Shown here piece by piece: positions 8,981 to 53,325 of a stretch of 64,000 nucleotides of DNA. The position numbers and the translations under genes are program-made. The notes under the pieces were generated by a model. The model had not been told where the DNA came from. It saw only the letters and a program-made list of their open reading frames with translations, and did no database searches. Origin of the DNA: Uliginosibacterium sp. 31-16 (GTDB lineage: Bacteria; Pseudomonadota; Gammaproteobacteria; Burkholderiales; Rhodocyclaceae); the NCBI RefSeq assembly GCF_030730865.1, contig NZ_JAVALZ010000001.1:1240001-1304000 (forward strand), in the 5' to 3' direction. The stretch's first letter is position 1. Every line of letters starts with the position of its first letter.

Positions 8981-9003
8981 GAGAGGGGTATCAGCCGGGG
9001 GGC

Positions 9004-9960
9004 TCAGGGCATCATGTTATTGGCGCCAAGCCAGGCAGCGAACAGATTGGGCCATTCGCTGGCCGATCCGGTCGCCTGACGGATACCAAAACCATGCCCA
9101 CTGGCGCGGAATACATGGATTTCAGCTGGCACGCCGGATGCGCGCAGCGCCCGGTAAAAGCTCACGCTGTTATCCGGCGGTACCGAAGTGTCGTCGTTGG
9201 CACAGGCCAGGAAGCTTGGCGGTGTGGTTTTGGTGACATGCTGCTCGGCCGAGAATTCGGCGATCAACTCGGGTGCCGGTTGCTTGCTGCCAAGCAGAAG
9301 CTCGCGAGACTGGGCGTGAGTCAGCTTGTCGGTCATGCTGATCACCGGATAGAGCAGGCCAAGAAAATCGGGCCTGGCCGAGAGTTTGTCGGCTTCGTCG
9401 CGCGGCGTGTAGACCGCCTTGTCGAACTGTGTGCCCAGCGTGGCGGCCAGATTGCCGCCCGCCGACATGCCGATCACGCCGACCCGGCTGGCATCCAGTT
9501 TCCATTCGGCAGCGTTAGCGCGGATCAGCCGGATGGCCCGCTGAGCGTCCTGCAGGGGGACATTCTGGCGATTGGCATGGCCTTCGCCGGGCAAGCGGTA
9601 TTTCAGTACGAATGCAGTGATGCCTTTGGCATTCATTGCGCGGGCAATGTCGACACCTTCCTTGTCTGTCACCACGCGTGCGTAGGCGCCACCCGGCATG
9701 ATCAGCAGCGCGGTGCCATTTGGTTTGGCCGCGACATAGGCGGTCATTGTCGGGTTGAGAACGTTGGTATAAGCACGATCCCTGATGGCCGGATCCTTGC
9801 TGCGCTCGGTTGCGGTTTCGACGAGCGTGAGGTTTTCCGAGCCGGGCGCCGTGCTCGCCCATAGCCGGGTTTCCTGCTGGTCTGCCAGCGGCGCAGCGGT
9901 GGCCAGGGTCGTGGCGAATGCCATGACCAGACCGGTCAGGCTGTATGCAATGAGTTTCAT
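9004..9960 (-). CDS. Secreted alpha/beta-hydrolase, xylan/acetyl esterase-like (second of pair)
   Basis: A 318-residue exported esterase of the BD-FAE/XynB-like hydrolase group that deacetylates plant sugars. The signal peptide (MKLIAYSLTGLVMAFATTLATA) ends near residue 22. The oxyanion-hole segment LIMPGGAYARVV is at 87-98, the nucleophile Ser166 is in GMSAGGN, the acid lies in ANDDTSVPP and the catalytic His in SGHGFGI. It follows a paralogue by 29 bases. With the GH28 polygalacturonase at 41 kb it hints at use of plant cell-wall material. The substrate is inference. Confidence 0.83.
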   Translation of the reverse strand: MKLIAYSLTGLVMAFATTLATAAPLADQQETRLWASTAPGSENLTLVETATERSKDPAIRDRAYTNVLNPTMTAYVAAKPNGTALLIMPGGAYARVVTDKEGVDIARAMNAKGITAFVLKYRLPGEGHANRQNVPLQDAQRAIRLIRANAAEWKLDASRVGVIGMSAGGNLAATLGTQFDKAVYTPRDEADKLSARPDFLGLLYPVISMTDKLTHAQSRELLLGSKQPAPELIAEFSAEQHVTKTTPPSFLACANDDTSVPPDNSVSFYRALRASGVPAEIHVFRASGHGFGIRQATGSASEWPNLFAAWLGANNMMP

Positions 9961-44597: not shown

Positions 44598-45515
44598 TCA
44601 GACCCGGCCGGATGGGCGCTGGCGTAACTCTGCCGCGCTCGCTTCCAGATGGCGCAGGAACTCCTGTGCAATCGGCGACAGGCGTTTTCCGCGCGGGTAG
44701 AGAATCCACCAGCTGCAGAGCACGGGAAATCCGCTGACCGGCAAGACGGTGAGCTGATCGTCCTCCAGATGGGTGGACAGCGAATGCTGTGACAGCACGG
44801 ACAGACCCAGACCGCCGGACACGGCTTGCTTGATGGCTTCGTTGCTGCCCAGTTCCAGCCTCACTTGAGGGTTGAAGCCCTGGCTGCGGAAGTGCGCATC
44901 GCAGGACGTGCGCGTGCCGGAGCCGCGCTCGCGCAGGATGAAACGCTCCTGGGCCAGATCGGCCAGTTCCAGTTTGCGGCGCCCGGCCAGCGGGTGGTCG
45001 AGCGGGGCAATGACCACCAGTGGATTGGGCAGGAAGGGGAGGCGCTCGATGTCGATGTCTTCCGGCGGGATGGACATGATGTAGAGATCGTTGCGGTTGG
45101 CGCGCAGGTTGGCGACCACGCCATCGCGGTTCTGCACATCAAGTTCGATATCGATCTCGGGGTAGCGCCGGCAGAACGTCCCCAGGATTCGTGGCACGAA
45201 ATACTTGGCGGTGCTCACCACGGCCACCCGCAAACGTCCTCGGGTGAGGCCCTTCATGGCATCGATCTGCTGCTCGAAACGCGCCCATTCCTCGACCATC
45301 GCCCGCGCGGTTTCGGCCAGCGCCTCGCCGGCCGGAGTGAGGTCGAGGCGTTTGCCGACCATTTCGTAGAGCGGCAGGCCGACCGATTCGGTGAGCTCCT
45401 TGAGCTGCATGGAAACCGAAGGCTGGGTCACGTGGCAGACCCGCGCGGCGCCCGTAATGCTGCGCTGTTTGGCCACGGCGAGGAAAAGCTTCAACTGGCG
45501 GAAACTGGCGTTCAT
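44598..45515 (-). CDS. LysR-type regulator, CbbR-like
   Basis: A 305-residue LysR protein: HTH FLAVAKQRSITGAARVCHVTQPSVSMQLKEL (10-40), then the effector domain. STAKYFVPRILGTFCRRYPEI, IMSIPPEDID and LRERGSGTRTSCDAHF closely follow CbbR, which senses NADPH or Calvin-cycle intermediates, but no Rubisco gene is in the window. It faces sbtA across 93 bases with a LysR-type palindrome, so it probably controls bicarbonate uptake with purE and purK. Confidence 0.88.
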   Translation of the reverse strand: MNASFRQLKLFLAVAKQRSITGAARVCHVTQPSVSMQLKELTESVGLPLYEMVGKRLDLTPAGEALAETARAMVEEWARFEQQIDAMKGLTRGRLRVAVVSTAKYFVPRILGTFCRRYPEIDIELDVQNRDGVVANLRANRNDLYIMSIPPEDIDIERLPFLPNPLVVIAPLDHPLAGRRKLELADLAQERFILRERGSGTRTSCDAHFRSQGFNPQVRLELGSNEAIKQAVSGGLGLSVLSQHSLSTHLEDDQLTVLPVSGFPVLCSWWILYPRGKRLSPIAQEFLRHLEASAAELRQRPSGRV

Positions 45516-45526
45516 CAGTAAATACC

Positions 45527-45545
45527 TATTCTGAACATTAGAATA
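45527..45545. promoter_or_regulatory. LysR-type operator between the regulator and sbtA
   Basis: TATTCT-GAACATT-AGAATA is an inverted repeat containing a T-N11-A core, the LysR-family consensus. It lies 12 bases from the regulator ATG and 63 from sbtA. Confidence 0.6.
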
Positions 45546-45608
45546 ATAGATTTTTAATGATCTTGCGTCCTCGCTAGGATTGCGCCGTTTCCACAGCAAG
45601 GTTTCGCC

Positions 45609-46601
45609 ATGCAAAACCTCATTGATCCGGCCATCCTGTTTTTCGCTTTTGGCCTGCTGGCCGGCGCCGTGCGCTCGAATCTGGAGATTCCTCCGCAGAT
45701 CTCGCGCTTCCTGTCGCTCTACCTGTTGATGGCGCTGGGGCTCAAGGGCGGGTTCGCGCTGGCGGTTTCGGGCCTGACCAGCGAGGTGGCCACCAGTCTG
45801 GCCTGCGCCGTGGCCCTGGCCTTCATCGTGCCGGCCTGCGGCTATCTGCTGCTGCGGCGTTATCTGCCGGGCTTTGATGCAGCGGCCATCGCGGCAACCT
45901 ACGGTTCGGTCAGCGCGGTGACCTTCATCACGACCATCCAGTATCTGGAAAGCCGTGGGGTGGCTTTCGGCGGACACATGGCTGCCGCGATGGCCTTGAT
46001 GGAGTCGCCCGCCATCATCATGGCCGTGCTCTTCGCCAACACCTTGCGTCAGCGCGGTGCGGTGCCTCTGGGGGGCGGCACGGCGGCGCTGGGCGGGCCT
46101 GCCGGGGGTTTCTCGCTGCGCAAGGTGCTGCACGAATCCTTTACCGATGGCGCGCAACTGCTGCTGCTCGGCGCCATGCTGGTCGGCATCATCACCGGCG
46201 AAGCCGGCAAGCACGCGATGCAGCCGTTCTCGGGCGATCTTTTCAAGGGCATGCTGGCTTTCTTCCTGCTGGACATGGGCCTGCTTGCCGCGCGCAACCT
46301 GCGCGAACTGAAGGGCGTGCCGCGCTGGCTGCTGCTCTACGCCCTGGCCGGGCCGCTGTGCCACGCCGTACTGGCTCTGGCGCTGGCCAGCGCAGTGGGG
46401 CTTGGCGCGGGCAATGCCACCCTGCTGATGGTGCTGGCCGGCAGTGCCTCCTACATCGCGGTGCCTGCGGTGCTGCGCTATGCCATCCCCGAAGCCCGCC
46501 CCTCGATGTATCTGGGCATGTCGCTGGGGATTACCTTCCCGTTCAACATCCTGTTCGGCATTCCGCTGTATGCCGGGATTGCTCACTTTTTGCTCGCCTG
46601 A
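45609..46601 (+). CDS. sbtA: Sodium-dependent bicarbonate transporter SbtA
   Basis: A 330-residue carrier with about ten spans in two repeats ([35 protein letters not shown] at the start, [23 protein letters not shown]-like spans later). SbtA takes up HCO3- with Na+ in cyanobacteria. The N-terminal [10 protein letters not shown] and [15 protein letters not shown]-type segment ([15 protein letters not shown]) are family features. The PII-like SbtB is not adjacent. The stop overlaps TGATG at the purE region, and the gene is followed directly by purE. Confidence 0.9.
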
Positions 46602-46615
46602 TGGAGTTTCACCGC

Positions 46616-47119
46616 ATGCAACACCCCACCTCACCACTGATCGGCATCGTCATGGGTTCGGATTCGGACTGGCCCACCCTGCAGGCGGCCGCGCGCATCC
46701 TGGAAGAGTTCGGCGTCGCGTTCGAAGCGCGCGTGGTCTCGGCGCACCGCACGCCGCAACTGCTGTTTGACTATGCCAGCAGCGCACGCGAACGCGGGCT
46801 CAAGGCCATCATCGCCGGGGCGGGTGGCGCGGCGCACCTGCCGGGCATGCTGGCGGCCCTGACGCCATTGCCGGTGCTCGGCGTGCCGGTGCAGTCCAAG
46901 GCCCTGTCCGGGCTGGATTCGCTGCTCTCCATCGTGCAGATGCCGCGCGGTGTGCCGGTCGCCACCTTTGCCATTGGCGAAGCCGGCGCGGCCAATGCCG
47001 CTTTGCTGGCCGTGGCCCAGCTGGCGACCCACGATGCCGCGCTGGCAGCGAAGCTCGATGCCTTCCGCCAGAAACAGACGGACAAGGTGCTGGCCATGCA
47101 GCTGGAGGGCGCGCCATGA
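46616..47119 (+). CDS. purE: N5-carboxyaminoimidazole ribonucleotide mutase
   Basis: Converts N5-CAIR to CAIR in purine synthesis. 167 residues: [15 protein letters not shown] with the CO2/phosphate Ser, VVSAHRTP with the catalytic His, [14 protein letters not shown] and [20 protein letters not shown]. Start at 46616 has GGAG nine bases upstream; an ATG at 46601 that overlaps the sbtA stop would add five residues. It overlaps purK by four bases (ATGA). Confidence 0.96.
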
Positions 47120-48246
47120 TTCTGCCTCCCGCAACCCTGGGCATCCTCGGTGGCGGCCAGCTGGGCCGCTATTTCACCCTGGCCGCCCGCGACATGGGTT
47201 ATCGTGTGATCGTGCTCGACCCTGAAGCCGATTGCCCGGCGGCCAGCGTGGCCGACGGACATATCCGCGCGCAATATGACGATGAACTCGCGCTAAGCGA
47301 GCTGGCGGCACGCTGCGCGGCGGTCACCACCGAATTCGAAAGTGTGCCGGCCGAGTCACTGCGCTGGCTGGCGGCACGGGTGCCGGTGCATCCGGCCGCA
47401 GAAGCCGTGGCGATCTGCCAGGACCGCCTGCGTGAAAAGCGTTTTCTTGCCGCCCATGGTCTGCCCCACGCAGCGTTTGCCAGCGTGGCCTCGGCTGAAG
47501 ATCTGGCCGGACTGGATGCGAAGCTGTTCCCGGCCATCCTGAAAGTGGTCCGCTGCGGCTACGACGGCAAGGGGCAGGCGCGGGTGCGTGATGAACAGGA
47601 GGCGGCGGCGGCCTTCGCCCAGCTGGGTAATGAGCCCTGCGTTCTGGAGCAGATGCTGACGCTGGACGCGGAGCTTTCCGTCGTGCTGGCGCGCGCCGGC
47701 GACGGCGCCGTGGAATGTTTCACCGCCAGCGAAAACCAGCATCGCGATGGCATTCTCGACATTTCGATTGCGCCTCCGGCGAGCATTCATGCCGGGCTTC
47801 AGGCCGAAGCGCGCAGCATCGCGGCTGAAATTGCGCACAAGCTCAATTACGTTGGCACGCTCGCCGTGGAGTTCTTCCTCGTCGGCCAGTGCCTGCTGGT
47901 TAACGAAATCGCCTCCCGCCCGCACAACTCCGGTCACTGGACGCTGGATGCCTGCTTCGTCAGCCAGTTCGAACAACAGGTGCGCGCGCTCTGTGGCTTG
48001 CCTCTGGCCAGACCCGAAGCGCATTCCGCGGCCGTGATGGTCAATCTGCTGGGAGGGCTGTGGTCACCGCGTGCGCCAGACTTCGGCAAGGCACTCCGTC
48101 ACCCCGGTCTGAAGCTGCATCTGTATGGCAAGAAGCAGGCGCGCAGCGGGCGCAAGATGGGGCATTTCACCGTACTGGGTGATTCGGTTGATGCGGCCCT
48201 GTCGCTGGCCCGGCAGGTGCAGGCGGAGATACCACAGACTATTTGA
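47116..48246 (+). CDS. purK: N5-CAIR synthase (ATP-grasp)
   Basis: Uses ATP and bicarbonate to carboxylate AIR. 376 residues: [22 protein letters not shown] opens, [20 protein letters not shown] has the ATP-binding Lys, [26 protein letters not shown] the metal and AIR site. It forms one operon with purE and, upstream, sbtA. The substrate bicarbonate is what SbtA imports. Confidence 0.96.
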
Positions 48247-48300: not shown

Positions 48301-50247
48301 ATGCTCCGCCTCCTGTTTCTCACCCTTCCCGCTGCCGTCTGCGCGCTGTTCATGCCCGTCGGCTATCTGCTGCTGGCCGGGGCAGCGTTGCTGGTCGGGC
48401 ATCGCGCCAGTTACCGGCTGGACTGGCCGCGCTACCGGCGCATGCTCGGCGGCTTGTATGGCGGTCTGGCGCTGGGTCTGGGCCTGCAGTTCCTGGTGGG
48501 CTATGCGGTGGCGGGTGAGTGGCTGGCGATGGTGTTTGCGCCGCTGTTCACCTGGCCCTGTGCCTGGGTGCTTTTCGTCCTGGTGAGCGAGCCTTCCTCC
48601 GCCAGTGCGGGCCGTCCGGCGCGTGAATTACCTTCCTTCCTGATCAGCGAGTTACCCATGCCCGAGCTGCGCGCAAATGGCACGATCAATCTGCATCGCC
48701 CGGAGAGTACGGAAGCGCCAGATGCATTCCACAGCTTCATGTGGGGTGAGCTCGGCATGGGCGGGCCGAGCTATGGCGAGATCATTTTCGGGAATGGCTG
48801 TGCGTTCAGATCGATGTTGGACTCGGTGCAGCTGCTGGACGGGGGGCGCTATGCGCGCCTGAGCCCGGCCAGCCGCGAGGAGGAAGATTTGCTCGTCGAC
48901 CTGCAGGAGAAGTGCTGCTACCGGGTGAGCGGACCACTGCCGGATGACGGGAGCCTGCCCCGGCGACTGGCCGGATGGCAGGCGCTGCCGATGGTGCAGG
49001 ATGATGGCTGGTGGGTGCCGGACGAGCCGGAGCGCGAGCCTTTTCCGGATTTTGCGGAGACGCGCATCGTCAGCTCAGGCGGGCATCATGTGGTGAGCCT
49101 GCTGCCGGATACGGCGGGCATGCTGCGCAATCCGTTCCTGCGCTACGACCATGCACGCTATCAGGTGAGTATTGACGGCGAGGTGTTCGGTGAGCCGGCG
49201 CGCGTGCTGCCCCGCGTGCAGTGGATCGACGCGCCGCATGCGCCCGAGGAGCAGGCTGACTGGAAACGCTGGGAGGGCTGTTACCTGATCCTGCGTGACG
49301 AGCTGCTGGATTTCTGCAGCCTGCGCGGCCATTTCAGCCTGGATGCGGCTACCCGCGTGGCGCTGGGGCATTGCGATCCCTCCACCTGGCAGCATTTCGA
49401 GGAAATGACGAGCGATGCGCCCGGCCAGCTTGTCGCCACCGCCTGTGCCATGCCGCGCAGCACCGGCCGACGCGAGGCAGAGACCTATGACGCAAGCTAT
49501 TTCTTCCCCAGCGATGATGACGAGGTGAGCTGGTGGGATGCCGAGGGGCGCGAGCACGAAGAACTGCGCGCACGCGCAACACGCCATTACCGCTATCGCA
49601 TCGACCTGTCGAAACTCAGCTACGTCGGCGTGCTGCGCCTGAGTGCGGAGGCTGAGCTGATCAACCGCGCCCGGCCGGAGAACACCGCACGCTTCTTTCA
49701 TGACGTCAGCAATGGCCTGGATGCCGAGGCCTGGCACGGCTATCGTCTGCAGACTTCCTGCGGCGTCGATCCGGGTCTGGTGGCGCACGAGGCGATCTGG
49801 TCGGACTGCGGGCGCTATCTCGCGGTGGTGGGCTTTGCGCATGCCCCCGAGGTGCCGCATGAAATCCGCATCATCGATTTCGACACCAGCACGCTGCGCC
49901 GCCTGTCCGGCTACTACGCATTGCCGAGCTTCATCTGGTTCGACGCGCACAAGCTGGATTTCAGCCACATCGTCGGCATCAAGGAAGACTGCCGTTTGCC
50001 GGGCTTGCCGATGCGCTGGGAACAGCATGATTTCCGTCTGGATGACGGCACGGCGGATGCCGCGCCCTACGAGCTGCTGATTGGTGGCGTCGCAGCCCGC
50101 CGCGAGCGCCTCAAGGCCTTGCAGGCCCGGCGCATCAAACCGGGTGAAGACGATTCGTCCAGCGTGCATCTGATCAACCGGCATTGCATGCTCTTCGCGC
50201 CGGATTTCGCTGCGCCAGTGTTGCAGCCGCCGGCGAAGCGCGACTGA
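48301..50247 (+). CDS. Large membrane-anchored protein of unknown function
   Basis: A 648-residue protein that I do not recognise. Two or three hydrophobic spans lie in the first 95 residues (LLFLTLPAAVCALFMPVGYLLLAGAALLV, later LALGLGLQFLVGYAVAGEWLAMVF). A long soluble part (110-640) has many Trp, Asp and Glu, short WDAEGREHEELRA and SYVGVLRLSAEAEL segments, and propeller-like strand pieces (AIWSDCGRYLAVVGFAHAPE). No catalytic motif is visible. It lies 54 bases after purK without a good ribosome binding site. Confidence 0.7.
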   Translation: MLRLLFLTLPAAVCALFMPVGYLLLAGAALLVGHRASYRLDWPRYRRMLGGLYGGLALGLGLQFLVGYAVAGEWLAMVFAPLFTWPCAWVLFVLVSEPSSASAGRPARELPSFLISELPMPELRANGTINLHRPESTEAPDAFHSFMWGELGMGGPSYGEIIFGNGCAFRSMLDSVQLLDGGRYARLSPASREEEDLLVDLQEKCCYRVSGPLPDDGSLPRRLAGWQALPMVQDDGWWVPDEPEREPFPDFAETRIVSSGGHHVVSLLPDTAGMLRNPFLRYDHARYQVSIDGEVFGEPARVLPRVQWIDAPHAPEEQADWKRWEGCYLILRDELLDFCSLRGHFSLDAATRVALGHCDPSTWQHFEEMTSDAPGQLVATACAMPRSTGRREAETYDASYFFPSDDDEVSWWDAEGREHEELRARATRHYRYRIDLSKLSYVGVLRLSAEAELINRARPENTARFFHDVSNGLDAEAWHGYRLQTSCGVDPGLVAHEAIWSDCGRYLAVVGFAHAPEVPHEIRIIDFDTSTLRRLSGYYALPSFIWFDAHKLDFSHIVGIKEDCRLPGLPMRWEQHDFRLDDGTADAAPYELLIGGVAARRERLKALQARRIKPGEDDSSSVHLINRHCMLFAPDFAAPVLQPPAKRD

Positions 50248-51506: not shown

Positions 51507-51597
51507 CCTTGAAGAGCCGCTTCTGGCGGGCTTCTTCAGGCATGGATCGTGAAGCGCATTGCGCGACAAGGCTTTTCGGAAGGCATGCCCGGAGAGT
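51507..51597. repeat. REP-like repeat, two units
   Basis: GAAGAGCCGC (51511-51520) pairs with GGCGGGCTTCTTC (51525-51537) around TTCT. A second half (GAAGGCATGCCCGGAGAG) follows at about 51580. Confidence 0.65.
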
Positions 51598-51771
51598 CAG
51601 ACCAGAAGCCGATCTGCAGACCGCTCTCCGATAATTTCGACCGTGCGCAACAAACTCTTACTGCAGCGCAACTGCATACGGGGTCGTGTGGTGCTAGGAT
51701 GCCGCGCTTCCCGTGCCCTGCTGGCTTGTGGTGTCGGCGGTCGGGAAAAATCTGTGCACCAGGAACATACG

Positions 51772-53325
51772 ATGAATGCTCCCGCGTCCGCCCCGGCACG
51801 GGGCGATGGGCTGCGCCGCAGCCTGAAAACCCGCCACCTGACGATGATTGCGATCGGTGGCTCGATCGGTACCGGCCTGTTTGTGGCTTCCGGCGCCACC
51901 GTGGCGCAGGCAGGCCCCGGTGGTGCCTTGCTGGGTTACGCCCTGATCGGCCTGATGGTGTATTTCCTCATGACCAGCCTGGGCGAGATGGCCGCCTACA
52001 TGCCCGTGGCCGGTTCCTTCGCCACCTATGGTGCGCGCTTCGTGGAGCCGGGCTTCGGCTTCGCGCTGGGCTGGAACTACTGGTACAACTGGGCCGTGAC
52101 GATCGCGGTGGAGCTCTCCGCCGCGGCCATCGTGATGAAGTACTGGTTCCCCGAGATCCCCGGCGTGGTGTGGAGCGGCGTGTTCCTCAGCGTGATGTTT
52201 GCGCTCAACGCGATTTCGGTGAAGGGCTTCGGCGAGGGCGAATACTGGTTCTCGCTGATCAAGGTGGTGACCGTGCTGCTCTTCATCGTCGCCGGTGTGG
52301 CGATGATCTTCGGCCTCATGAAGGGCGGCCAGACCCTGCCGCTGGAGAACTTCACCATCGGTGATGCGCCCTTCGCAGGCGGCCTGCCGGCGCTGATCGG
52401 GGTGGCGATGATCGCCGGTTTCTCCTTCCAGGGCACCGAGCTGATCGGTATCGCCGCGGGTGAATCCGCCGATCCGGGGCGCAGCATTCCGCGTGCGGTG
52501 CGGCAGGTGTTCTGGCGCATCCTGCTGTTCTACGTGCTGGCGATTGCGATCATCGGCCTGCTGATTCCCTACACCGATCCGAACCTGCTCAAGACCGACG
52601 TGACCGAGATTGGCGTGAGCCCCTTCACCCTGGTGTTCCAGCGTGCCGGCATCGCCTTCGCGGCGAGCGTGATGAACACGGTGATCCTCACCGCCATCCT
52701 CTCCGCCGGCAACTCGGGCATGTACGCTTCCACCCGCATGCTCTACGCGCTGGCCTGCGAGGGCAAGGCGCCGGCCCTGTTCGCGCGCCTGTCACGCAAT
52801 GGCGTGCCGCTCAACGCGCTGTATGCCACCACGGCCGTCGGCGCGCTGTGCTTCCTGACCTCGATCTTCGGCGACCAGACAGTCTATCTGTGGCTGCTCA
52901 ACACCTCGGGCATGACCGGCTTCATCGCCTGGCTGGGCATCGCTGTATGTCACTACCGTTTCCGCCGTGCCTGGCGCGTGCAGGGGCGTGATCTGGCCGA
53001 GCTGCCCTATCGCTCGCCCTTCTTCCCCTTCGGCCCGCTGTTCGCCTTCGGTCTGTGTTTGCTGATCACGCTGGGGCAGAACTGGCAGGCTTTCAGCGCC
53101 GAGCATGTGGACTGGGTCGGGCTCACCGCCACCTACATCGGCATTCCGCTGTTCCTCGCGATCTGGTTCGGCTACCGCTGGCGTCATGGCAGCCGCCTGA
53201 TTCCGCTCGCCACGATTGACCTGACCAGTGATGGCCAGCCGCGAGTCGCCGCAACGGAATCTGCAGACGAGCCGGACGATGACGACGATCTGATCGGTGG
53301 CGCCGTGCCGGTGGCGGCTAACTGA
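51772..53325 (+). CDS. lysP: Lysine-specific permease
   Basis: A 517-residue amino-acid/proton symporter with 12 spans. It follows E. coli LysP nearly throughout: LRRSLKTRHLTMIAIGGSIGTGLFVASGAT, GFALGWNYWYNWAVTIAVELS, GFSFQGTELIGIAAGES and SGNSGMYASTRMLYALA-type (SAGNSGMYASTRMLYALACEGKAP). The C-terminus adds an acidic tail (DEPDDDDDLIGG) beyond the usual end. In E. coli LysP also senses lysine for CadC; no cad genes are near. Confidence 0.93.
   Translation: MNAPASAPARGDGLRRSLKTRHLTMIAIGGSIGTGLFVASGATVAQAGPGGALLGYALIGLMVYFLMTSLGEMAAYMPVAGSFATYGARFVEPGFGFALGWNYWYNWAVTIAVELSAAAIVMKYWFPEIPGVVWSGVFLSVMFALNAISVKGFGEGEYWFSLIKVVTVLLFIVAGVAMIFGLMKGGQTLPLENFTIGDAPFAGGLPALIGVAMIAGFSFQGTELIGIAAGESADPGRSIPRAVRQVFWRILLFYVLAIAIIGLLIPYTDPNLLKTDVTEIGVSPFTLVFQRAGIAFAASVMNTVILTAILSAGNSGMYASTRMLYALACEGKAPALFARLSRNGVPLNALYATTAVGALCFLTSIFGDQTVYLWLLNTSGMTGFIAWLGIAVCHYRFRRAWRVQGRDLAELPYRSPFFPFGPLFAFGLCLLITLGQNWQAFSAEHVDWVGLTATYIGIPLFLAIWFGYRWRHGSRLIPLATIDLTSDGQPRVAATESADEPDDDDDLIGGAVPVAAN

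Follow-up and report, generated by a model that had tools for sequence, protein, structure and literature searches.

The window analysed here, a stretch of 64,000 nucleotides from Uliginosibacterium sp. 31-16 (genome G000), holds a tight unit of three open frames arranged head to tail on the plus strand: sbtA (45609-46601), purE (46616-47119), and purK (47116-48246). By profile match, sbtA encodes a predicted Na+/HCO3- symporter of the SbtA family (PF05982); purE belongs to the PurE group with PurK partners (group A, by TIGR01162 and trees), and purK, the only one found in the genome, encodes N5-carboxyaminoimidazole ribonucleotide (N5-CAIR) synthase (NF004677). An initial reading made without database searches (the sequence-only reading) had placed purE 14 bases after sbtA, with purK overlapping purE, and the frames and coordinates bear this out: 14 bases separate the sbtA stop from the purE ATG at 46616, and the overlap between purE and purK measures 4 bases. 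With an in-frame ATG at 46601 as its start, purE would instead overlap sbtA at the stop codon (TGATG). Facing sbtA across 93 bases (45516-45608) is a divergent gene on the minus strand (44598-45515) for a CbbR/CmpR-like LysR-type regulator, with the Pfam domains LysR_substrate and HTH_1. No terminator-like site was found by a scan of the plus strand from sbtA through the end of purK, nor did the same scan find a sigma-70-like promoter in the stretch, and no tRNA, tmRNA, or Rfam element was found in the window. The sbtA-purE-purK unit is probably read as one transcript. A protein of 648 amino acids without a Pfam match is encoded on the same strand 54 bases past purK (48301-50247) and may extend the operon.

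The sbtA product matches the Sbt_1 profile (PF05982) as a full-length member, with 362.1 bits over residues 7-325 against a cut-off of 27, and is the sole such match in G000. Its relationship to Slr1512 is distant (E 7.1e-28); for that protein, passages of PMC8352866 model HCO3- contacts at Ser114, Tyr140, Ser324, and Ser327 and describe Na+ as bound through main-chain oxygens. Mapped on a pairwise alignment, Ser114 (S102) and Ser324 (S281) are kept, Tyr140 and Ser327 are changed to M128 and A284, and three of the five Na+-site residues are identical. Both the distance from Slr1512 and the retention of only two of the four modelled HCO3- residues would suit a homologue that carries another anion, in which case the purE-purK neighbourhood would reflect something else. 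We regard this as very improbable, given that the Na+ site works through main-chain atoms and is partly identical here, that the regulator is CbbR/CmpR-like, that SbtB-like PII genes stand at the linked loci described below, and that SbtA-family transporters of autotrophic Proteobacteria are reported, in passages of PMC10880623, to be active on HCO3-. The absence of the PII-like sbtB from the window, remarked on earlier, holds for the genes adjacent to sbtA, the next ones being purE and purK; a genome-wide SbtB search was not made. In a number of relatives, the gene for a protein of ~285 amino acids (..RRVAFLTQHGKQ..) begins at most about 10 bases from the sbtA stop (L009, about 9000-9858, and comparable positions in further loci of Limnohabitans and Comamonadaceae), and this protein is a candidate SbtA partner.

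Both purine genes belong to their equivalog families, as PurE scored 213.6 bits on TIGR01162 (cut-off 149.6), and PurK scored 550.8 on NF004677 (cut-off 441) and 377.7 on TIGR01161 (cut-off 318.4). According to passages of PMC3261824, PurK and PurE together turn 5-aminoimidazole ribonucleotide (AIR), ATP, and HCO3- into 4-carboxy-5-aminoimidazole ribonucleotide (CAIR) and are standard enzymes of AIR carboxylation. The window PurE grouped with the sbtA-linked PurE of another genome of the family, G114, and not with its genus mates (support 98/83 in a tree of 70 rows and 97/90 in one of 84 rows). Because neither it nor PurK (tree of 37 of the 79 harvested sequences) groups with genus mates, the phylogenies suggest that the purE-purK pair of the window was acquired. 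The window PurK also reads otherwise where four solved PurK proteins show NE(M/L)APRPHNSGH.

The genome (3.9 Mb, 99.75% complete) carries a second purE, although only the one purK; its other match to the purK profile is PurT (NF006766, 635.9 bits vs. 339). The second purE lies on contig 5 (124010-124486) without a purK partner, in the order folD-purE(B)-dienelactone-hydrolase-like gene-sua5. The same place elsewhere in the genus is occupied by folD-purE-purK-sua5 in G001 and by folD-purE(B)-320-aa gene-sua5-like gene in G005; the first gene of this locus is, judging from its sequence, what we take to be folD. Contamination as the source of the second PurE was rejected, since its neighbours match those of G001 and G005 in order and sequence, and the protein itself is nearest to the PurE of G005 (support 93/91 in the 70-row and 81/92 in the 84-row tree). 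We also rejected its assignment to the CO2-using class II, as it is class I-like, with E values of 6e-58 to 4grd and 8e-54 to 3oow vs. 3.2e-13 to 3rg8, which we take to be a class II enzyme. G001 possesses sbtA and the LysR gene (89% and 94% identical to those of the window) with no purE or purK beside them, and G005 has neither an SbtA match nor a purK-level match. The genus therefore holds three states: housekeeping purE-purK with a solitary sbtA (G001), a PurK-less PurE with neither (G005), and that PurE together with sbtA-purE-purK (G000). The LysR-sbtA pair has an amino-acid-permease-like gene nearby in both G000 (window 51559-53325) and G001 (L144, 10904-12523); the two copies are 89% identical but stand on different sides of the pair, a sign of local rearrangement.

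The two kinds of PurE recur across the family, which was sampled as 199 genomes. No purK-level match was found in 57 of them (20 gave no match at all and 37 a best E above 1e-40). Forty-four genomes have a PurE that shares 73% identity or more with the contig-5 protein; 41 of these are without purK, and the remaining 16 purK-less genomes comprise six with a PurE 65-71% identical to it, seven with no PurE match, and three with weak or split matches. In the 70-row tree, one branch (99/97) separates all 27 PurEs of purK-less genomes, together with all four second copies, from all the purK partners, and the same division (96/96) was recovered after 14 further purK-partner rows had been added; these supports are rough, the bootstrap not having settled in either tree. 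The 70 rows came from 108 harvested loci, the 38 left out comprising 22 that were the same sequences and 16 that were not; the 84-row tree adds 14 of those 16, leaving out L045 and the short L150. Four genomes (G000, G114, G152, and G189) have both kinds of PurE and a purE-purK pair, with the qualification that the position of the second copy in G152 is uncertain: it sits on a long branch, and a warning in the 84-row tree indicates that its placement may be a long-branch join. Four others (G059, G073, G150, and G180) show two PurE matches, the second outside those listed, among which a full-length PurE of the second kind would rank. Passages of PMC10880623 relate that PurE can do without PurK when inorganic carbon is very high and that cyanobacterial purK mutants need high CO2, and passages of PMC3261824 that the absence of purK in archaea fits CO2-rich habitats.

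SbtA was found in 57 of the 142 purK-bearing genomes of the family and in none of the 57 purK-less ones (Fisher test, 6.5e-11, with genomes taken as independent and the comparison framed after seeing the data). Of the four genomes with two PurE kinds, three (G000, G114, and G152) have sbtA beside purE-purK, in two gene orders, while no adjacency of sbtA and purK was seen in the other 54 family genomes with both genes. For this adjacency, the Fisher test gave 8.6e-6 (3/4 vs. 0/138) and, among SbtA genomes, 3.4e-5 (3/3 vs. 0/54), again with genomes treated as independent and the question framed post hoc. Adjacency was read by eye from the coordinates, and where the genes lie on separate draft contigs, the flanks set the limit to which it can be excluded. 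In G114 and G152 the order is purE-purK-sbtA followed by a PII-like gene (sbtB). Because the SbtA of G152 is only 40% identical to that of the window and the gene order differs, we count at least two origins of the linkage. A gene of the S30AE type (ribosome hibernation-like) precedes purE in L229 (G114), L230 (G152), and L231 (G189), confirmed by Pfam in the latter two and read by eye in the first, and opposite the unit in all three lies a LysR gene that is not of the window's kind.

Outside the family, at the level of the order, purK was found upstream of sbtA, on the same strand and within ~2.5 kb, in 17 of the 128 loci compared, a set from which the family members already read and most fragment matches had been excluded. 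The flanks, which were searched for purine genes, Sua5, LysR, and SbtB, extend ~1.5 kb in 28 loci and ~2.5 kb in 100 (L251 lies inside L275); upstream, 94 of the 128 have 2 kb or more and 122 have 1.4 kb or more, so linkage over longer distances would be missed. The linked loci belong to four families (nine, five, two, and one genomes) and are therefore far from 17 independent events. All 17 have an SbtB-like gene (51 of the 128 overall), 16 have purC, and 10 have sua5 (five purC and one sua5 were Pfam-checked). Most have ~2 kb between purK and sbtA, occupied by purC and other genes; sbtA follows purK closely in L316 and L346 and ~0.95 kb after it in L329. Across the linked loci inside and outside the family, the three SbtA proteins compared are 40-44% identical to that of the window. 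In L367 (G323), purC and sua5 stand near sbtA, and purK was not seen in the stretch examined, so that this locus may be an 18th case of linkage. In Polaromonas glacialis (L045), purE-purK precedes sbtA by 6 to 8 kb, but we rejected this as a further case because it is not separable from chance. The idea that linked purE-purK implies a second PurE was likewise rejected outside the family, since 40 genomes (the 17 linked ones and 23 unlinked SbtA genomes chosen from a set of 121) have one PurE each, apart from an extra match of 36 residues in G435 and a sole match that is partial in G558.

Among sequences of solved structures, the LysR protein comes closest to a regulator of the Rubisco operon, 5y2v (E 1.3e-85), and to CmpR, 5z49 (E 7.2e-64), while on the NCBIfam CbbR equivalog model it reached 240.4 bits, below the cut-off of 450. 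Because of this score, and because no Rubisco gene was found for it to control, we call it CbbR/CmpR-like only; the sequence-only reading was right about its position facing sbtA and, as far as resemblance goes, about its being CbbR-like. The palindrome to which that reading pointed at 45527 is present as TATTCT-N7-AGAATA (45527-45545), a possible LysR recognition site, and sits just before ATAGATTTT (45546-45554, plus strand), the window copy of a conserved ATNGATTTT box. What relatives have in common is this adjacent box: ATNGATTTT is present in 75 of the 88 distinct LysR-sbtA intergenic regions searched for patterns, the window's included, while 100 shuffled sets gave 1.3 on average and 6 at most. 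Where the window has the palindrome, G001 has an overlapping inverted repeat of different sequence, TCCTGA-N2-TCAGGA, which may or may not be the same site. The quartiles of the position of the box are all 30 bases from the LysR start. The set was composed of regions of 31-249 bases between LysR and SbtA matches that both start at residue 1 or 2. Because relatives without purE-purK share the box, the control region looks, from its sequence, older than the arrival of these genes, which would have been placed under it.

No Rubisco gene had been in view at the locus, and this extends to the whole genome, as the RuBisCO_large profile (PF00016) found no match in G000, nor in any of the eight genus genomes. 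As regards Rubisco, G000 thus gives no sign of a CO2-concentrating mechanism; carboxysome genes were outside the search. Comparative genomics makes a functional link between sbtA and purE-purK likely, and we lean, with somewhat less assurance, towards the operon being a bicarbonate-fed branch of purine synthesis as the best explanation of the whole. By family knowledge, SbtA would import HCO3- with Na+; PurK would spend ATP to put HCO3- on AIR, giving N5-CAIR, which PurE would rearrange to CAIR. The second PurE, by analogy, would have to take CO2 or spontaneously formed N5-CAIR and should for that reason serve only when CO2 is plentiful; its group, its missing purK partner, and the literature all point to service at high CO2. 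At low CO2, sbtA-purE-purK would take over, with imported bicarbonate feeding PurK. The regulator, presumably sensing some signal of low inorganic carbon, would switch the unit on through the older sbtA promoter. Ribulose 1,5-bisphosphate is an unlikely effector for it without Rubisco. Whether the two PurE proteins divide the labour in a full two-route switch appears to us almost evenly balanced, tilting slightly to the negative. Since a second purE, of the PurK-less kind, stands at the usual purine locus, the window pair is probably a conditional second route and not the sole purine supply. The earlier proposal of a bicarbonate supply for purine synthesis gains from the recurrence of the tie (3 of the 57 SbtA genomes of the family and 17 of the 128 order-level loci) and from the lack of Rubisco, but needs amending in view of the second purE.

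Besides the two changed HCO3- residues of SbtA, several observations weigh against this interpretation. G000 has one beta-carbonic anhydrase, a possible source of HCO3- that needs no import. As the second PurE resembles class I, its use of CO2 is an inference. G189 has both PurE kinds and purE-purK but no SbtA match, and in the 17 linked genomes outside the family, with one PurE each, sbtA-sbtB accompanies ordinary purine genes. The window PurK is the longest branch of its tree, apart from genus mates. The exact order sbtA-purE-purK was found in none of the other genomes examined (0 of the 198 other family genomes and 0 of the 128 order-level loci), and we rejected it as a conserved unit; of the seven other genus genomes, only G001 has sbtA, without purE-purK. 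The 80 best of 546 named SbtA relatives, which belong without exception to the same SbtA branch as the window protein, likewise have neither purE nor purK adjacent to sbtA (75 of the 80 extend at least 1.5 kb past sbtA); they are mostly titled Burkholderiales or Betaproteobacteria, with a few others such as Akkermansia and Opitutae. The search of related genomes that had been proposed for this neighbourhood therefore gave a divided answer, the exact order being, among the genomes examined, private to the strain while the association recurs elsewhere. A strain-specific order, a purE-purK pair that does not group with genus mates, and a G001 sbtA-LysR pair without purE-purK are what would be expected if the pair had been transferred horizontally and had settled behind the sbtA promoter with no metabolic link. 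We consider such a chance capture unlikely, because purE-purK-sbtA neighbourhoods exist in other orders in G114, G152, and the 17 order-level loci, and because the other 54 family genomes that carry sbtA and purK show no adjacency by coordinates.

A general bicarbonate supply deserves more weight and is a real possibility, if one that we rate below an even chance: SbtA would feed all users of HCO3- (acetyl-CoA carboxylase, carbamoyl-phosphate synthase, phosphoenolpyruvate carboxylase, and PurK), with purE-purK as one co-regulated low-CO2 set. Several carboxylations in the synthesis of lipids, nucleotides, and arginine use HCO3- as their substrate (passages of PMC9894237), and sbtA stands without purE-purK in G001 and in the best 80 named relatives. 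The cluster of G114 points the same way, since its purE-purK-sbtA-sbtB unit (contig 17, L229) adjoins Rubisco and CbbQ genes, near a VWA-domain gene that we take to be CbbO. For the same reason, the separation from carbon concentration proposed in the sequence-only reading fits G000, with its lack of a Rubisco match, but is not general. The recurrent physical tie to purE, purK, and purC argues against a general supply only weakly, because the flanks were searched for purine genes, Sua5, LysR, and SbtB and not for other carboxylases.

Several known systems resemble the bicarbonate-fed purine operon in part. The cyanobacterial sbtA-sbtB system, with control of inorganic-carbon genes by LysR proteins of the CmpR/CbbR type, shares with it an SbtA-family transporter facing a CbbR/CmpR-like LysR gene, whereas the window unit is without an adjacent SbtB and carries purE-purK, in a genome with no Rubisco found. 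In heterotrophs, carbonic anhydrase or MpsAB likewise provides HCO3- for biosynthetic carboxylases at air CO2 (PMC8567241, PMC6689103, and passages of PMC9894237); here the transporter is of another family and is physically joined to one HCO3- user, and G000 also has its beta-carbonic anhydrase. The human mTORC1-SLC4A7 axis, as cited in a passage of PMC10912719, also raises bicarbonate import for nucleotide synthesis, but with eukaryotic regulation and an SLC4-family carrier. Finally, the PurE-PurK pair and the PurK-less PurE are both standard for AIR carboxylation (passages of PMC3261824), and what sets G000 apart is that it has both PurE kinds, with the PurK pair inside a transporter operon. 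We found no report of a linkage of sbtA with purE or purK in titles, the starts of abstracts, or passages; in its passages, PMC10880623 discusses purK and SbtA apart from each other.

SbtA is known from work on carbon concentration in autotrophs, but genomes in which no Rubisco was found can carry it too, among them G000 and also G152, which has no RuBisCO_large match. The recurrent tie to purE, purK, and purC offers a concrete and testable answer to the role of SbtA in such genomes, and the link between PurK and CO2 supply becomes a genomic marker, with SbtA in 0 of the 57 purK-less genomes of the family. We advance only tentatively, as somewhat doubtful, the broader picture of a Rubisco-less heterotroph that would keep a CO2-dependent PurE for CO2-rich times and, when CO2 is scarce, turn on an importer together with PurK and PurE through a repurposed CbbR/CmpR-type sensor. 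If such a CO2-responsive purine switch exists, purine synthesis and not carbon fixation would be the selective reason for this SbtA, and the same reason would apply to the sbtA-sbtB genes found among purE, purK, and purC elsewhere in the order.

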